A stretch of 64,000 bases of DNA from Clostridium sp. MB40-C1 (GTDB taxonomy: Bacteria; Bacillota; Clostridia; Clostridiales; Clostridiaceae). This document shows, piece by piece, positions 10,531 to 15,406 of the stretch (position 1 is its first letter; every line of letters begins with the position of its first letter). Location: the NCBI RefSeq assembly GCF_030913655.1, contig NZ_CP133189.1, positions 1,302,001-1,366,000 on the forward strand, read 5' to 3'. The translations under genes and the position numbers were made by a program. Under the pieces are notes generated by a model, which was given only the letters and a program-made list of their open reading frames with translations, was not told where the DNA came from and searched no databases.

Positions 10531-10668
10531 GAGTACTGTTTTACCGCTAATGCAAAATTTATGTTTTCAAAAGCACGATAATCGTCATTCCTTTCTTTAA
10601 AATAACGGTTATTAATTTCTAAAGTTATCGTTTAAAGCATGTCTTTTCTAAATTTGAAATTAATTTAT
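10531..10668 (-). pseudogene. Decayed copy of the methyltransferase 3' end
   Basis: This non-coding stretch aligns closely, by eye about 90% over the first 95 bases, with the last part of the intact methyltransferase gene (12825-12965). It keeps codons for 'NFALAVK', 'RAFENI' and 'NRYFKER'. The stop codon is lost, and an internal deletion of about 25 bases precedes a more diverged segment. It lies just beyond the end of the staygreen-radical SAM cassette, in the same orientation as the intact gene 2.3 kb away. Confidence 0.85.
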
Positions 10669-10714
10669 ATAATTAAAAATTCAAACAAAAATGTTATGAT
10701 TATAAAAATCTAGT

Positions 10715-11137
10715 TCAATATAGGTATTCAGATACTAATCCTAAATCTTCAACTATATAATTTTCTGTACTATACATATAAAATACATATATTTTTGATT
10801 CTGTTAAATAATCATTAGCTAAAATATATGGTTTGTCTCCACAAATGATTGCTTTAAGGGCTCTTGTTATATGGCTTTTAAATATTTTATACCTTTCATC
10901 TGCACTATATTTACTAGCTTCGCAACTAAGGGGACAAGAGGCCTTGAATATAAATTTGTTATTTACTAAATTCCATTCACCAACAACTTGATCCATTAAA
11001 ACATCGAATTTTTCTTCTGTAAATTTGTTGTTTATAAACAAATATCTTATTCCAGTCTCATCAGAATGTGTAAGTGTATATTTTCTTTTCAAAGGATCTT
11101 GTATATTATTTATTATATTAACTTCTAACTTATGCAT
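10715..11137 (-). CDS. STAYGREEN (SGR) family protein, probable metal dechelatase
   Basis: This 140-residue protein matches the Staygreen domain: 'RKYTLTHSDETG' (residues 18-29), 'VLMDQVVGEWNL' (46-57), a Cys pair in 'ASCPLSCEAS', and 'ADERYKIFKSHITRALKAIICGD'. The last matches the plant 'ELRYKIF...LxAxxxGD' region. Plant SGR removes Mg from chlorophyll a, and bacterial homologues can show the same activity. The His24-x-Asp26 pair and Asp49 align with residues implicated in dechelation (from memory of the literature). The ATG at 11137 is preferred over the GTG at 11146 because AAGGGGTG precedes it. It overlaps the stop of the ECF gene by eight bases, so the two are coupled. Its substrate in a non-photosynthetic anaerobe is unknown; a tetrapyrrole is the natural guess. 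Confidence 0.8.
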   Translation of the reverse strand: MHKLEVNIINNIQDPLKRKYTLTHSDETGIRYLFINNKFTEEKFDVLMDQVVGEWNLVNNKFIFKASCPLSCEASKYSADERYKIFKSHITRALKAIICGDKPYILANDYLTESKIYVFYMYSTENYIVEDLGLVSEYLY

Positions 11138-11663
11138 TATTAACACCCCTTAACCTTTCTGGCATTATTTTTATAGCAGTAAATGAACCAATTAAACCAG
11201 CAATATAAACAGAAATGATGCTTATTAATAGTGCAAGTTTACCTTGAAATAGGTATCTAGGACTATTTACCATAAATGTAACTACAAAAAATGTACCTAT
11301 GATACCACCTACTGAATATATTGGTGCACACAGTGCTATTTTAATCTTGGAATCATAATTTTTTAAAATCAAGAGATTTACAATATCCGCTAAAATTCCG
11401 CCAATTATTATGGCTATACTCATAAAAATAGATATACGAATCATTATAAGTCCATAACCTAAAGCAAACATTGTCATTATGCCAGGCTTTCTTATTTTAT
11501 ATATCATAACTGTTATAAGGAAACTATAGAATGGTGCATTTATAACGCCTCTTGAAAGAGGAATTATGCTATGTAACACCCCCAATACTTTGCCAAGTAC
11601 AACAGCTATAGCAATGCATATACCTATTGTAGTCAAATCTTTTATTGTCATATTCCACTTCAT
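11130..11663 (-). CDS. ECF transporter S-component-like membrane protein
   Basis: This 177-residue protein has about five or six membrane segments (near 10-30, 42-55, 60-78, 80-98, 108-130, 140-162). Its pattern ('LTTIGICIAIAVVLG', 'GVINAPFYSFLITVMIYKIRKPGIMTMFALGYG') resembles the MptD/Trep_Strep type of energy-coupling-factor substrate-binding subunits. Such proteins bind a small metabolite and use a shared ATPase/EcfT module. No ATPase is encoded nearby, so a genomic group-II module would be needed. The ATG follows AAAGGAGG that overlaps the radical SAM stop. Its place between an AhbD-like enzyme and an SGR homologue suggests tetrapyrrole or precursor uptake (inference). Confidence 0.75.
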   Translation of the reverse strand: MKWNMTIKDLTTIGICIAIAVVLGKVLGVLHSIIPLSRGVINAPFYSFLITVMIYKIRKPGIMTMFALGYGLIMIRISIFMSIAIIIGGILADIVNLLILKNYDSKIKIALCAPIYSVGGIIGTFFVVTFMVNSPRYLFQGKLALLISIISVYIAGLIGSFTAIKIMPERLRGVNNA

Positions 11664-11678
11664 GTTTTTTAACCTCCT

Positions 11679-12662
11679 TTATAATAAACAATATGGGTCT
11701 TCATCTAGCCAATCCCCTGAGTGATTAAAGGCTCTAGCTCTACAGCCTCCACAGATATTTATATATTTACAGTTTCCACATTTACCTTTATAATTTTTGA
11801 AATCTCTTAGTTTACAAAAAATATCATTATTATGCCATATACTATCAAAAGATTCTTCACGAACACTAGCTACCTTAACTGGAGCGTAAGGGCATATATG
11901 GACATCACCATTCGGAAGGATAGAACAGTAACTTATTCCAGCAATACATCCTCTTATTCCACCATATGACTTAATTCCTTTAAGCAATGACTCAACTTTA
12001 TATTGGGGAGCGCAAGTTGGTTTAATCCGAATAGCTAAGTTTTTATCAATTATAGTATGAATAGCTTTTTTATACTCATCTTTATTTAGATATGTTTCAC
12101 CTAAATTTTTTCCTCTACCTACTTGTACAAGAAAAAGCATATGACAAGAAGAAGCACCAAAAGTAGAAGCAAAGTTCATTATTTTATCTAGTTCATTTAG
12201 ATTTTCTTTAGTAATAGTGCAGTTTATTTGAACATTAATTCCAACATCTATACAATTTTGAGCTCCTTGTAAAGCTTTTTGGAAAGCAGTTGATGAACCT
12301 CTAAAATTGTTATGCTTAATAGGGTTTAAACTATCTATGCTAATAGCAATAGACTTTAGCCCATAATTTTTTAGTTTTTCTGCACATTCCTTTGTTATCA
12401 ATGTACCATTACTACCCATGAGAGTAGTCATTCCTAGAGAAGATGCATATTCAATTAATTCAAAAATATCGTTTCTCATTAGTGGCTCTCCACCACTGAA
12501 TACTATAATTCTAAAACCAGCCTTATATATTTCTTCTAAAAGTCTTTTTCCTTCTTTAGTGGATAGTTCATCACTATCTAATTCATTGGGGCCACATTCT
12601 CTATAGCAATGTTTACAATACAGATTGCATCTTTTAGTTGTATTCCATGATATATGATTCAT
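11679..12662 (-). CDS. Radical SAM/SPASM enzyme of the AhbD/NirJ heme-pathway type
   Basis: This is a 327-residue enzyme. The N-terminal radical SAM cluster motif is Cys12-x3-Cys16-x2-Cys19 in 'KRCNLYCKHCYRECG', followed by 'FSGGEPLMRNDIFEL', 'GSNGTLIT' and 'ISIDSL'. The C-terminal SPASM region has 'GCIAGISYCSILPNGDVHICPY', 'CGNCKYINICGGCRARAF' and a terminal 'DEDPYC'. This full pattern is that of the AhbD/NirJ group, which decarboxylates or trims propionate side chains of Fe-coproporphyrin and heme d1 precursors. No other heme-synthesis genes are visible, so the substrate may be an imported tetrapyrrole. The RBS is AAAGGAA. The ECF gene follows 15 bases after the stop. Confidence 0.88.
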   Translation of the reverse strand: MNHISWNTTKRCNLYCKHCYRECGPNELDSDELSTKEGKRLLEEIYKAGFRIIVFSGGEPLMRNDIFELIEYASSLGMTTLMGSNGTLITKECAEKLKNYGLKSIAISIDSLNPIKHNNFRGSSTAFQKALQGAQNCIDVGINVQINCTITKENLNELDKIMNFASTFGASSCHMLFLVQVGRGKNLGETYLNKDEYKKAIHTIIDKNLAIRIKPTCAPQYKVESLLKGIKSYGGIRGCIAGISYCSILPNGDVHICPYAPVKVASVREESFDSIWHNNDIFCKLRDFKNYKGKCGNCKYINICGGCRARAFNHSGDWLDEDPYCLL

Positions 12663-12829
12663 TGTATATCATTTCCTTTCTTTGTTTATAGTATATTCAA
12701 AGCTTTTCTACACAGAATTAAAAAGTAAATTTTTTATGGTATTTAGTTATCAAAATAATAACTGGTTTTACAAGTGAATTCTATAATTACTATTATATAA
12801 CATTTTTATATAATAAAGAGATGAGTGAG

Positions 12830-13744
12830 TTATTTTTTTACTGCTAATGCAAAATTTATATTTTCAAAAGCACGATAATCATCATTTCTTTCTTTAAAAT
12901 AACGATTATTAATTTCTAAAGGTGTCAAATGTTCATAAAGTTGAAAGCCTGTCCTTTCTAAATCTAAAACTAATTTACTGCATGAATAGCAACTTTTCAT
13001 AGGTTCTCCATTTTGAATAGCTGCATGTACCATGGTTTGAACACGTTTTGTTGTTTTTTTAGGTCGAAATATATCAGAATCTGCATAGTCAAAGGCAAGA
13101 GAGCTGCCATTTGGTGAAATATTAGATATACCTTTTAATGTATTTAATATTTCACCTTTACTTAAATAGTAAGTTACTCCAAGCCAACTATAAAAACTTA
13201 ATTTAGTTGGATTAAAAGCTGAATTTTTTATTGTTTCTGCAAAATTATTTTTTGAGAAATCAACAGGTATAAAATGCAAATTTTTAGGAATTTCCCACCC
13301 AGTTATTTTTATTCTATCTAATTTTAGTTTTTGGGTAGCAGGGTGATCTAATTCAAAAACATCAATATGATTCAATAAATCTGGATTACGAAAGGCAAAA
13401 GTATCAAAACCTGCACCTAAGATGACATATTGTTTTACTCCAAGTTTAATCGAAAGTTTTAGCATATCTTCTGTATATCTGCTGCGTGATAATGAAATAG
13501 GTGCTATTTGATTTTGAATAACGGCTTTTAAAACAGAGTCTTTATCCTTACAAAATCTTGCTTTGTCTGAATCAGAAAAGTTTATACTTCCTGCTAAAAT
13601 ATTACTAATAGTTTCATATTCATCATCTGTTATTAGCTGTTTTGCAAGAAAATCATCAAAGATTTTTGGTGATTCATTCATAGAGTGATAGGCTCTTCCA
13701 TAAGCTGTTATTAAAGCTGTAGTACTTGGTTTATTATTTTTCAT
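12830..13744 (-). CDS. SAM-dependent methyltransferase, leucine-carboxyl-methyltransferase family
   Basis: This 304-residue class I methyltransferase is of the LCM/TIGR00027 type. It has an N-terminal 'RAYHSMNESPKIFDDFLAKQL' motif, 'LSRSRYTEDML', the SAM-binding 'YVILGAGFDTFAFR', the acidic 'VFELDHPATQKLK', and 'SWLGVTYYLSKGEI'. Relatives methylate carboxyl groups or polyketide hydroxyls; the substrate here is not evident. AAGGAGGGA precedes the ATG, and a consensus promoter reads leftward at 13858-13830. It is followed by 167 bases and then the radical SAM gene on the same strand, so read-through into the tetrapyrrole-like cassette is plausible. A broken copy of its 3' end lies at 10531-10668. 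Confidence 0.88.
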   Translation of the reverse strand: MKNNKPSTTALITAYGRAYHSMNESPKIFDDFLAKQLITDDEYETISNILAGSINFSDSDKARFCKDKDSVLKAVIQNQIAPISLSRSRYTEDMLKLSIKLGVKQYVILGAGFDTFAFRNPDLLNHIDVFELDHPATQKLKLDRIKITGWEIPKNLHFIPVDFSKNNFAETIKNSAFNPTKLSFYSWLGVTYYLSKGEILNTLKGISNISPNGSSLAFDYADSDIFRPKKTTKRVQTMVHAAIQNGEPMKSCYSCSKLVLDLERTGFQLYEHLTPLEINNRYFKERNDDYRAFENINFALAVKK

Positions 13745-13777
13745 TATAAATCCCTCCTTAAAAATTTAAAAATTCTA

Positions 13778-13806
13778 TTGACAAATATATAAACATATGA
13801 TATAAT
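13778..13806 (+). promoter_or_regulatory. Consensus rightward promoter
   Basis: TTGACA (13778-13783), exactly 17 bases, then TATAAT (13801-13806). It faces the leftward promoter at 13858-13830. Its transcript would run about 200 bases before the GNAT gene at 14010, across a hairpin (AAGCATTA...TAATGCTT, 13894-13930) and three direct copies of TTGTTTATA (13820, 13958, 13981). Confidence 0.7.
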
Positions 13807-13829
13807 ATTTAATTAAAATTTGTTTATAT

Positions 13830-13858
13830 ATTATACAATTTACTTTTAATCTTGTCAA
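13830..13858 (-). promoter_or_regulatory. Consensus leftward promoter of the methyltransferase gene
   Basis: On the minus strand, TTGACA (13858-13853), exactly 17 bases, then TATAAT (13835-13830). The predicted start gives a leader of about 80 bases to the methyltransferase ATG at 13744. An inverted repeat (ATATATAAAC...GTTTATATAT) lies between the two facing promoters and could be an operator. Confidence 0.78.
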
Positions 13859-14009
13859 TGATGAATCAGAAAAATAATATAGTTAATATAAATAAAGCAT
13901 TAGGTGGTTTTGCAAAACTGCTTAATGCTTTTGGTGGTTTGCGGTTTAAGTTTTTGCTTGTTTATAATATATAATTAAGATTGTTTATATTAGTTTAGGT
14001 GGTGAGTTA

Positions 14010-14453
14010 ATGGAAGTTAAACAGATTATGACTGAAAAAAAACAATTTCTTGATTTGCTTTTGTTAGCAGATGAACAAGAAGATATGATTGATAGATACT
14101 TAGAACGCGGAGAGATGTTTGCTCTATATGACAATGATTTGAAAGCTATTTGTGTTGTTACGCAAGAGCATGACAGTGTCTATGAATTAAAAAATATAGC
14201 CACATACGAAGAATATCAAGGACAAGGCTATGGTAAGCAACTGATAGAATACATTTTTAAATATTACAAGGACAAGTGTAAGACTATGATTGTTGGTACC
14301 GGCGATAGTCCACTAACAGTTCCCTTTTATGAGAGGTGTGGATTTATAATCTCCCATCGTATCAAAAATTTTTTTATAGATAATTATGATCATCCAATTT
14401 ATGAATGTGGCGTACAACTTGTGGATATGGTCTATCTAAAAAAACATTTCTAA
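14010..14453 (+). CDS. GNAT family acetyltransferase (YvbK-like)
   Basis: This 147-residue protein has an N-terminal '[24 protein letters not shown]', the acetyl-CoA loop '[14 protein letters not shown]' and the YvbK-type tail '[18 protein letters not shown]', '[23 protein letters not shown]'. The B. subtilis homologue's substrate is not firmly known. GGTGGTGAG precedes the ATG at 14010. Base composition is slightly less AT-rich than its neighbours. It follows the divergent/convergent promoter region of the methyltransferase gene but is probably transcribed independently. A 262-base gap with only a dispersed repeat follows. Confidence 0.88.
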
Positions 14454-14660
14454 ATGAATGGAATAGCTGTGATATTATTAAAAAAGGTATTATGTTGGAT
14501 TATTAAAGAAAAAAACCACTATTTATTAAGTTCTTAATTTAATAGACGACATCCTAAGGTTTATTGTAACTAATAGTTGAATTTTTAGTATGTTCAAGAT
14601 AAATAATGATATTAGAATCAATAATAGATATTAATTTTAAAGTGTATTTAAAATCTCATC

Positions 14661-14716
14661 TTAATTGAGAAAATTTCATAATTTGGAAATTGCATAGCTA
14701 CATGCAATTTCCTTAA
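14661..14716. repeat. Dispersed palindromic repeat, copy A
   Basis: TTGAGAAAATTTCATAATTT is followed by a hairpin (GGAAATTGCAT...ATGCAATTTCC). It shares its layout with copies near 58631-58690 and, partly, 19731-19790. It lies just past the stop of the crp-type gene and may also act as its terminator. Confidence 0.65.
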
Positions 14717-15406
14717 CTATCTAGGCAAATTATCTATATATATTCGCTTTAAACTTTTCTCATCTATAACTTTAACTTTTTTATATCCTAAAGAGACTAA
14801 TCCTTTCTCTTGAAAAGAATTTAGTATTTTAGTAACGGTTACTCTACAGCTGCCAATAAGTTGTGCAATTTCTTCGTGAGAATAATCAATAATATAAGAT
14901 TCATCATTTTTATTTTTCTTAAAATGTACACCTAATCTTAAGATTAATTCAGCAACTTTTTTGTCTGCAGGCAAGAAGGCCATACTATTAACCTGAGTTG
15001 ATAGGTTTTTCATTGTTAGTGACATAAGATGAAACATTTGAATCATTAATTCTGGATATTTAGTTAGATAAGGGTACAAATTTTCTAAACTCACTGAAAT
15101 TAACTCTACATCTGTTGCAGCACTAACAGATGTTAATCTTGAGCCATAACTAAAGTATGAGGATTCTCCAAATAGTTTTCCTTTCCTTAATATTTCAATA
15201 GTAAGTTCTGTTCCTTCTGGTGAAATGAGAAATATCCTAACACGACCGGATTTAATTAAATAAAAACTTTCAGCCACATCTTCTTGAAAATATATCATTT
15301 CATTTTTACTATATCTTTGTATTGTACCAGCCTCTTCAAATATTTTATAAAAATCAGAAGTAATATTTATTGAAGAACTTGGCAAATATTTATGAGTTTT
15401 AAACAT
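14717..15406 (-). CDS. Crp/Fnr family transcriptional regulator
   Basis: This 229-residue protein has an N-terminal cyclic-nucleotide-binding-like beta barrel (about 20-125: 'YFQEDVAESFYLIKSGRVRIF', 'GKLFGESSYF'), a dimerisation helix, and a C-terminal winged helix (about 150-225: 'YIIDYSHEEIAQLIGSCRVTVTKILNSFQEKGLV'). No Fnr-type Cys cluster is present and the CRP cAMP contacts are not conserved, so the effector is unknown. It is divergent from an MFS pump, and a perfect TTGTAG/CTACAA palindrome lies between them, suggesting control of that pump and itself. Confidence 0.9.
   Translation of the reverse strand: MFKTHKYLPSSSINITSDFYKIFEEAGTIQRYSKNEMIYFQEDVAESFYLIKSGRVRIFLISPEGTELTIEILRKGKLFGESSYFSYGSRLTSVSAATDVELISVSLENLYPYLTKYPELMIQMFHLMSLTMKNLSTQVNSMAFLPADKKVAELILRLGVHFKKNKNDESYIIDYSHEEIAQLIGSCRVTVTKILNSFQEKGLVSLGYKKVKVIDEKSLKRIYIDNLPR

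Follow-up and report, generated by a model that had tools for sequence, protein, structure and literature searches.

Why an anaerobic bacterium should encode a STAYGREEN (SGR) protein, a relative of the chlorophyll dechelatase of plants, beside an enzyme of the heme-building type is the question raised by a locus of Clostridium sp. MB40-C1. The locus lies in a stretch of 64,000 nucleotides (contig NZ_CP133189.1, positions 1,302,001 to 1,366,000, hereafter the window), which belongs to a genome made up of one contig of 3.89 Mb (G000). The physiological relevance of bacterial SGR homologues is stated as unknown, and photosynthetic eukaryotes are suggested to have received a bacterial SGR homologue by horizontal transfer (PMC8531759). 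The original prediction, made from the letters of the window, described a four-gene cassette for tetrapyrrole scavenging. What is retained here is a unit of three genes, encoding a radical SAM/SPASM enzyme (rSAM), a membrane protein resembling the S-components of energy-coupling factor (ECF) transporters and an SGR protein, which recurs in the same order in a second bacterial family, while the fourth gene, a methyltransferase, is a neighbour only. We propose, with moderate confidence, that the three genes form a functional unit for the salvage of an external tetrapyrrole in anaerobes that need heme. If so, anaerobes unable to make tetrapyrroles would gain a dedicated route to heme from porphyrins shed by others, and bacterial SGR proteins would have a candidate job that can be tested.

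In the window, four open reading frames (ORFs; 10715-13744), all leftward, encode from upstream to downstream the methyltransferase, the rSAM, the membrane protein and the SGR. The last three form one tight operon, in keeping with the predicted operon of at least three genes. The rSAM gene ends 15 bp before the membrane-protein gene, its stop codon reaching into the ribosome-binding site AAGGAGG of the latter, and the last 8 bp of the membrane-protein gene are shared with the SGR gene, whose start is the ATG at 11137 (a GTG at 11146 is a possible alternative). The operon proteins are 98-99% identical between the window genome and Clostridium brassicae (G003), of the same genus.

Outside the window's family, the operon is also found in a distantly related family of Clostridia (f32), in which its identity to the window copy is about 30-50%. 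At the locus L166 of genome G900, for example, the gene order is the same and identity reaches 50% for the rSAM, 31-32% for the membrane protein and 32-35% for the SGR. SGR genes occur in 8 of 130 f32 genomes; in seven of them every gene of the operon is open, although the rSAM of G1078 has nine unmatched residues at its start, and the eighth, G994, has a decayed copy with a broken rSAM gene and no membrane-protein match. Spacing, measured in four f32 copies, is as tight as in the window (gap 0 bp, overlap 4 bp). A genome of the same genus as G900, G1070, carries the corresponding empty site, where genes for a 584-aa protein, a catalase, a NUDIX-like and a cysS-like protein (the last two identified by eye) follow one another with 141 bp from catalase to NUDIX-like gene; in G900, the three operon genes occupy exactly this position between the catalase and NUDIX-like genes. 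Because the G1070 site lacks exactly three genes, these were gained or lost together. In f32, the three operon genes are under purifying selection, with ratios of nonsynonymous to synonymous divergence (dN/dS), in four pairs from four genomes, of 0.04-0.13 for the rSAM, 0.09-0.21 for the membrane protein and 0.07-0.14 for the SGR, next to 0.03-0.06 for the catalase. The pair formed by the window and C. brassicae holds too few changes for a dN/dS reading.

The tree and profile scores support a place for the operon rSAM among the heme-building enzymes NirJ2 and AhbD. AhbD, alias NirJ2, is tabulated as an oxygen-independent coproheme decarboxylase (PMC10991733), and its cysteine pattern is known from published work on methanogens and sulfate reducers (PMC10452713). 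The window rSAM is 46-52% identical to clostridial NirJ2 and contains the radical SAM motif CX3CX2C as well as, at residues 217-325, the full AhbD SPASM cysteine motif. Both patterns are present in nine of nine operon rSAMs; the full AhbD motif is likewise found in 9/9 NirJ2 and in none of nine NirJ1, two TIGR04053 proteins and the single rSAM of locus L118, described below. In a tree of 30 proteins, which included rSAMs from plasmid searches among its references and neither an experimentally tested AhbD nor a peptide maturase, the nine operon copies form one clade (support 98/95) with or beside NirJ2 and apart from NirJ1 and TIGR04053. Support is 83/90 for the operon clade with two NirJ2 rows and 93/95 for the operon clade with all NirJ2. 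A peptide-modifying SPASM enzyme was rejected on NCBIfam scores and tree placement; the AhbD-like assignment of the original prediction is thus upheld, on a tree lacking a peptide maturase.

The two operon-bearing Clostridium genomes contain no second NirJ-type match (E <= 1e-20), hence no NirJ1. Of the eight genomes of the genus, five have hemB and three (G000, G001 and G003) lack it; the three include both operon carriers, G000 and G003, in which de novo tetrapyrrole synthesis looks absent. A genome unable to start the ring that carries an orphan heme-finishing enzyme implies feeding from outside, if the rSAM acts on a tetrapyrrole. The operon rSAM resembles the AhbD/NirJ2 heme synthase in its identity and motifs, but differs in being an orphan, with no AhbA/B gene beside it, in its hemB-less genomes and in its separate clade. 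The siroheme-dependent heme operon NirJ1-NirJ2-AhbB/A-like (e.g., in G002; AhbB/A by eye) shares with it the type of the last enzyme; it encodes, by contrast, a multi-enzyme de novo pathway, and no SGR or importer gene is present in the stretch read (L048).

The window SGR matches PF12638 with 90.4 bits (curated cut-off 27), and four f32 copies scanned score 47-55 bits. Its residues His24, Asp26 and Asp49, predicted to be intact, align with His32, Asp34 and Asp62 of AbSGR (PDB 7y5y) and are indeed conserved. Arg18, Tyr20, His24, Asp26, Thr28, Asp49 and Arg82 (window numbering) are common to 9/9 operon copies and 51/51 other SGRs, namely 50 of the 79 other loci from the scan of named genomes described below and one paralogue of the window genome. 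In AbSGR, activity depends on Asp34 and Asp62, and mutation of His32 leaves weak activity; mutants of Arg26 and of Tyr28 are inactive and insoluble, while the Arg95 mutant is still active (PMC8531759). From 39 window and named-genome sequences, AlphaFold gave a model (pLDDT 88.7) that matched a single PDB entry at E < 0.001, namely 7y5y, an SGR from Anaerolineae (E 2e-12, TM 0.85), on which it superposes. The operon SGR keeps the Mg-dechelatase residues and, by its model, the SGR fold; the residues suggest dechelation chemistry. It differs from the known Mg-dechelatase in coming from a divergent group and in being encoded with a heme-type rSAM and a membrane protein.

One bacterial SGR has been found to remove the metal from chlorophyll derivatives in vitro (PMC11006732, PMC8531759), which would fit a unit that scavenged a dietary or plant chlorophyll breakdown product. 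Such a role is very improbable here, the unit having no phytol-, chlorophyllase- or ring-opening-type gene and the operon being linked in f32 to a catalase, described below. Of the tetrapyrrole scavenging first predicted, the dietary chlorophyll idea is not supported, since the f32 catalase points to heme supply, while the scavenging itself fits the missing hemB of both Clostridium hosts.

The membrane protein is a probable S-component working with the shared ECF motor of the cell, a role that its hydrophobic segments, its motif and the absence from the operon of genes for T and A components would fit. A simple hydropathy scan found five to six hydrophobic segments, with six in 6/7 operon copies, the window copy among them. 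The first segment contains [AG]xxxA in 10/10 rows (GxxxA in the window copy); a small-xxx-Ala sequence at this place is what we take to be the ECF S-component motif, although a literature search for the motif gave no occurrence. In an alignment of seven of the nine operon copies, five arginines (Arg38, Arg58, Arg76, Arg136 and Arg170) are invariant, and 3/3 other homologues have none of them at the corresponding places; these arginines would suit a polycarboxylate ligand. PDB sequence searches found no solved relative, and the AlphaFold model, built from two rows only, is of low confidence (pLDDT 52.8) and was not interpreted. The term Trep_Strep, the name of the family matched, was not found in open-licence PubMed Central papers.

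A unit unrelated to tetrapyrroles, in which the rSAM modifies another imported metabolite or a peptide and the divergent SGR has taken a new role, would be in line with the low PF12638 scores of this SGR group (45-90 bits) and with the PDB and literature searches, which gave no ligand for the S-component family. We consider it quite unlikely, given that the SGR catalytic residues are retained in nine of nine copies, that the rSAM falls inside the heme group and that the Clostridium hosts are hemB-less.

In f32, a catalase gene is located directly upstream of the operon, on the same strand and at 60-79 bp, in six of the seven open copies; it likewise lies directly upstream in the decayed one. 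The L166 catalase is a full-length match to PF00199 (578 bits), the others being identified by PF00199 search and homology. The linkage is seen in three neighbourhoods, distinguished by eye: that of G900, G1071, G1078 and G1079, that of G1075, and that of G995, shared with the decayed G994. A catalase search in 71 of the 130 f32 genomes and eight genomes of the window's genus found the enzyme in all eight operon-bearing f32 genomes (one decayed) versus 29 of 63 others (Fisher P 0.005, uncorrected for relatedness), the 29 including fragments (G980, G1039) and a copy with stops (G998). The adjoining catalase in f32 points to heme supply. A role limited to catalase supply was rejected, since catalase is missing from the window genome; it is missing from G003 as well and so cannot be the sole client.

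The same linkage bears on two further explanations. Anaerobes cannot use the oxygen-dependent heme oxygenase, which speaks for heme-iron acquisition, whereby the S-component would import heme, the SGR extract the iron and the rSAM modify the leftover ring for disposal. ECF heme importers do exist, such as LhaSTA of Staphylococcus lugdunensis (PMC7299338), and the SGR is modelled with a demetallating fold. Yet the rSAM groups with enzymes that build heme, the f32 operon sits behind a heme consumer, and a Pfam scan of the neighbouring window genes (GNAT, VanZ, GNAT, CRP-type) shows no iron gene among them, so that this explanation is unlikely. We also judge it improbable that another tetrapyrrole (siroheme, didecarboxysiroheme, a corrinoid or a Ni/Co chlorin) is salvaged or remodelled into a cofactor other than heme b. 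The loss of hemB abolishes all tetrapyrrole synthesis, beyond heme, the Clostridium hosts are without catalase, and the rSAM, in a clade distinct from NirJ2, may have shifted its substrate; however, the catalase linkage in f32 indicates heme b, and the AhbD-type motif is fully retained.

The salvage route that we infer, with all the substrates it assigns to the operon proteins, would begin with the S-component, docked on the shared ECF motor and importing a carboxylated porphyrin that neighbouring cells release; the likeliest candidate is coproporphyrin III, either as such or chelated with a metal, as in Zn-coproporphyrin. A porphyrin precursor is favoured over heme as the import because heme import alone needs no AhbD. 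The SGR, to judge from its dechelatase residues, would then handle the central metal, taking out a wrong one and possibly aiding the exchange for iron. As phylogeny and cysteine motif suggest, the AhbD/NirJ2-like rSAM would convert Fe-coproporphyrin III into heme b by oxidative decarboxylation of two of its propionates, and the heme might finally be loaded into enzymes, among them, in f32, the catalase encoded upstream. Coproporphyrins and zincmethylphyrins have been reported as growth factors passed between bacteria (PMC11139205). As analogies, these growth factors and the heme import by LhaSTA may serve as precedents but do not prove the case of the operon. The parts belong to known families (the membrane protein marginally), and their combination is apparently new; the pathway is proposed only, from sequence. 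Searches of open-licence PubMed Central papers listed none with this gene combination and none pairing staygreen with radical SAM. To our knowledge, no earlier genomic finding has pointed to a role of bacterial SGR proteins as this conserved operon does, in which SGR is joined to a heme-synthase relative and an importer-like protein, with catalase alongside in one group and hemB missing from the genomes of the other. A bolder version, tentative and rather unlikely, would have the SGR family be ancestrally metal-exchange enzymes of porphyrin salvage (Zn or Mg out, Fe in) and the plant chlorophyll dechelatase a re-used heme-salvage enzyme; the operon would then be a new heme route, in which coproporphyrin is imported, the SGR replaces ferrochelatase and the orphan AhbD finishes the synthesis.

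Several observations weigh against the proposed salvage. The importer assignment is marginal and the weakest part of the case: the window membrane protein scores 28.9 bits with PF09605 (Trep_Strep) against a cut-off of 28.7, and no Pfam model matched the three f32 copies scanned. Its likeness to LhaSTA lies in the proposed ECF-type import of a tetrapyrrole, but the operon has an S-component-like gene only, with no T or A gene, and no conserved His was found in the operon membrane proteins, whereas LhaS, the S-component for heme, is suggested to coordinate its ligand through His (PMC7299338). The best NCBIfam models for the window rSAM are NirJ2 (394 bits) and then AhbD (320 bits), and neither score reaches the equivalog cut-off of 500; nor do those of the f32 copies (NirJ2 357-359 bits, AhbD 320); a NirJ2 from a NirJ1-NirJ2-AhbB/A-like operon, at 431 bits, also misses the NirJ2 cut-off. 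In the SGR tree, the nine operon copies group weakly (92/79) and on long branches. The import of a metal-free porphyrin would still require iron insertion, by the SGR or by a ferrochelatase elsewhere, which leaves a gap in the route. The hemB search covered the window's genus, and the catalase search found none in the window genome or C. brassicae. In f32, moreover, G982 carries the operon without an adjoining catalase, the enzyme being encoded elsewhere in the genome, while 29 of 63 genomes have catalase without the operon, and in G1070 it is found even at the empty site. Finally, at the SGR loci examined outside the two families, none is linked to operon genes except L118.

SGR is widespread and, in the loci examined, mostly unlinked to operon genes, one divergent SGR lineage being tied to the operon. 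In the window's family, 82 of 206 genomes have SGR genes, and an rSAM adjoins SGR in two of these 82, the window genome and C. brassicae (by match coordinates, E <= 1e-20). A scan of named genomes gave 120 SGR relatives, of which 80 loci were kept, several shortened by contig ends. A NirJ/AhbD-type rSAM adjoins SGR in two of these 80, those of C. brassicae and L118, and weak rSAM matches (20-24%) lie within 10 kb of SGR in L114 and L133. In an even sample of the class Clostridia, 11 of 391 genomes showed an SGR match, 10 of them above the cut-off; eight loci outside the window's family were examined, one of them L166 of the f32 genome G900, the weak below-cut-off match in G865 being left out. 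The conserved linkage sought by the original prediction exists, in the recurrence of the operon in f32, and is rare. None of the three findings it had named as refuting (no linkage in other genomes, a structure lacking the SGR pocket, an rSAM placed with peptide-modifying SPASM enzymes) occurred. Plasmid searches gave one weak Cytobacillus match for SGR and none for the membrane protein, and scans of viral contigs for both gave nothing useful.

L118 (6968-10393), from a metagenome-assembled genome of Dehalococcoidales, contains a row of genes for a UbiA-like prenyltransferase, an AhbD/TIGR04053-like rSAM, a UbiE-like methyltransferase and SGR, behind molybdopterin-oxidoreductase-like (by eye) and cytochrome b561 genes. 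It was rejected as a further operon copy: its rSAM does not have the complete SPASM motif and sits on a very long branch, weakly grouped with TIGR04053, and the arrangement is missing from all five further SGR loci examined in its class, two of them on contigs of <10 kb.

The features of the locus are collected in Table 1. The methyltransferase, counted in the original prediction as part of the cassette, was rejected as an operon member. It lies 167 bp upstream of the rSAM gene, has no match in eight f32 loci (L166, L177-L183) and is present (73% identity) in G005, of the same genus, without the three genes in the 15 kb around. The three operon genes are flanked by the methyltransferase gene on one side and by a methyltransferase scrap on the other, and this remnant probably explains why the interval first predicted began at 10531. 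The intergenic stretch upstream of the operon would be its likely promoter site; an Rfam scan of this stretch gave no match at the gathering score.

Table 1. Features of the operon and its edges in the window.
Feature	Position	Strand	Basis
Radical SAM/SPASM enzyme (rSAM), NirJ2/AhbD-like, 327 aa, operon gene 1	11679..12662	-	PF04055 + PF13186
Probable ECF-type S-component, Trep_Strep-like membrane protein, 177 aa, operon gene 2	11130..11663	-	PF09605, marginal
STAYGREEN (SGR) homologue, 140 aa, operon gene 3	10715..11137	-	PF12638
Intergenic stretch, 167 bp, upstream of operon	12663..12829	-	ORF positions
TIGR00027/LCM methyltransferase, flanking gene outside operon	12830..13744	-	Pfam + NCBIfam
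Remnant, 3′ end of second methyltransferase copy, downstream edge of operon	10539..10667	-	Degraded copy, also in C. brassicae

When positions 10715-15406 of the window are compared with L013 of C. brassicae, synonymous divergence (dS) is 0.01-0.05 in the three operon genes versus 0.08-0.16 in three flanking genes, the counts being small. The operon may have been exchanged recently. A CRP/FNR-type regulator (14717-15406) next to the region is kept in C. brassicae.

Altogether, the window genome encodes three SGR proteins. Divergent SGR paralogues without the catalytic His and first Asp (3/3) are found in the window genome (G000:C1:1567755-1568174, L012), in C. brassicae (L014) and in L165. The best-scoring SGR of the genome is encoded, in the window genome (L011 8404-12399) and in C. 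brassicae (L015 1655-5648), beside Fur-, DUF134-, NifX- and MinD/Mrp-like genes, identified by eye. Degenerate extra SGR copies with in-frame stops occur a few kb from intact ones (G084:C1:3090804-3091117, G085:C14:77742-80032). SGR also forms the N-terminal part of ORFs of about 400 aa (L016 6804-7997, L082 9932-11140, L088 9953-11155 and L114 9953-11146), and further SGR ORFs of about 400 aa are listed in the window's family.

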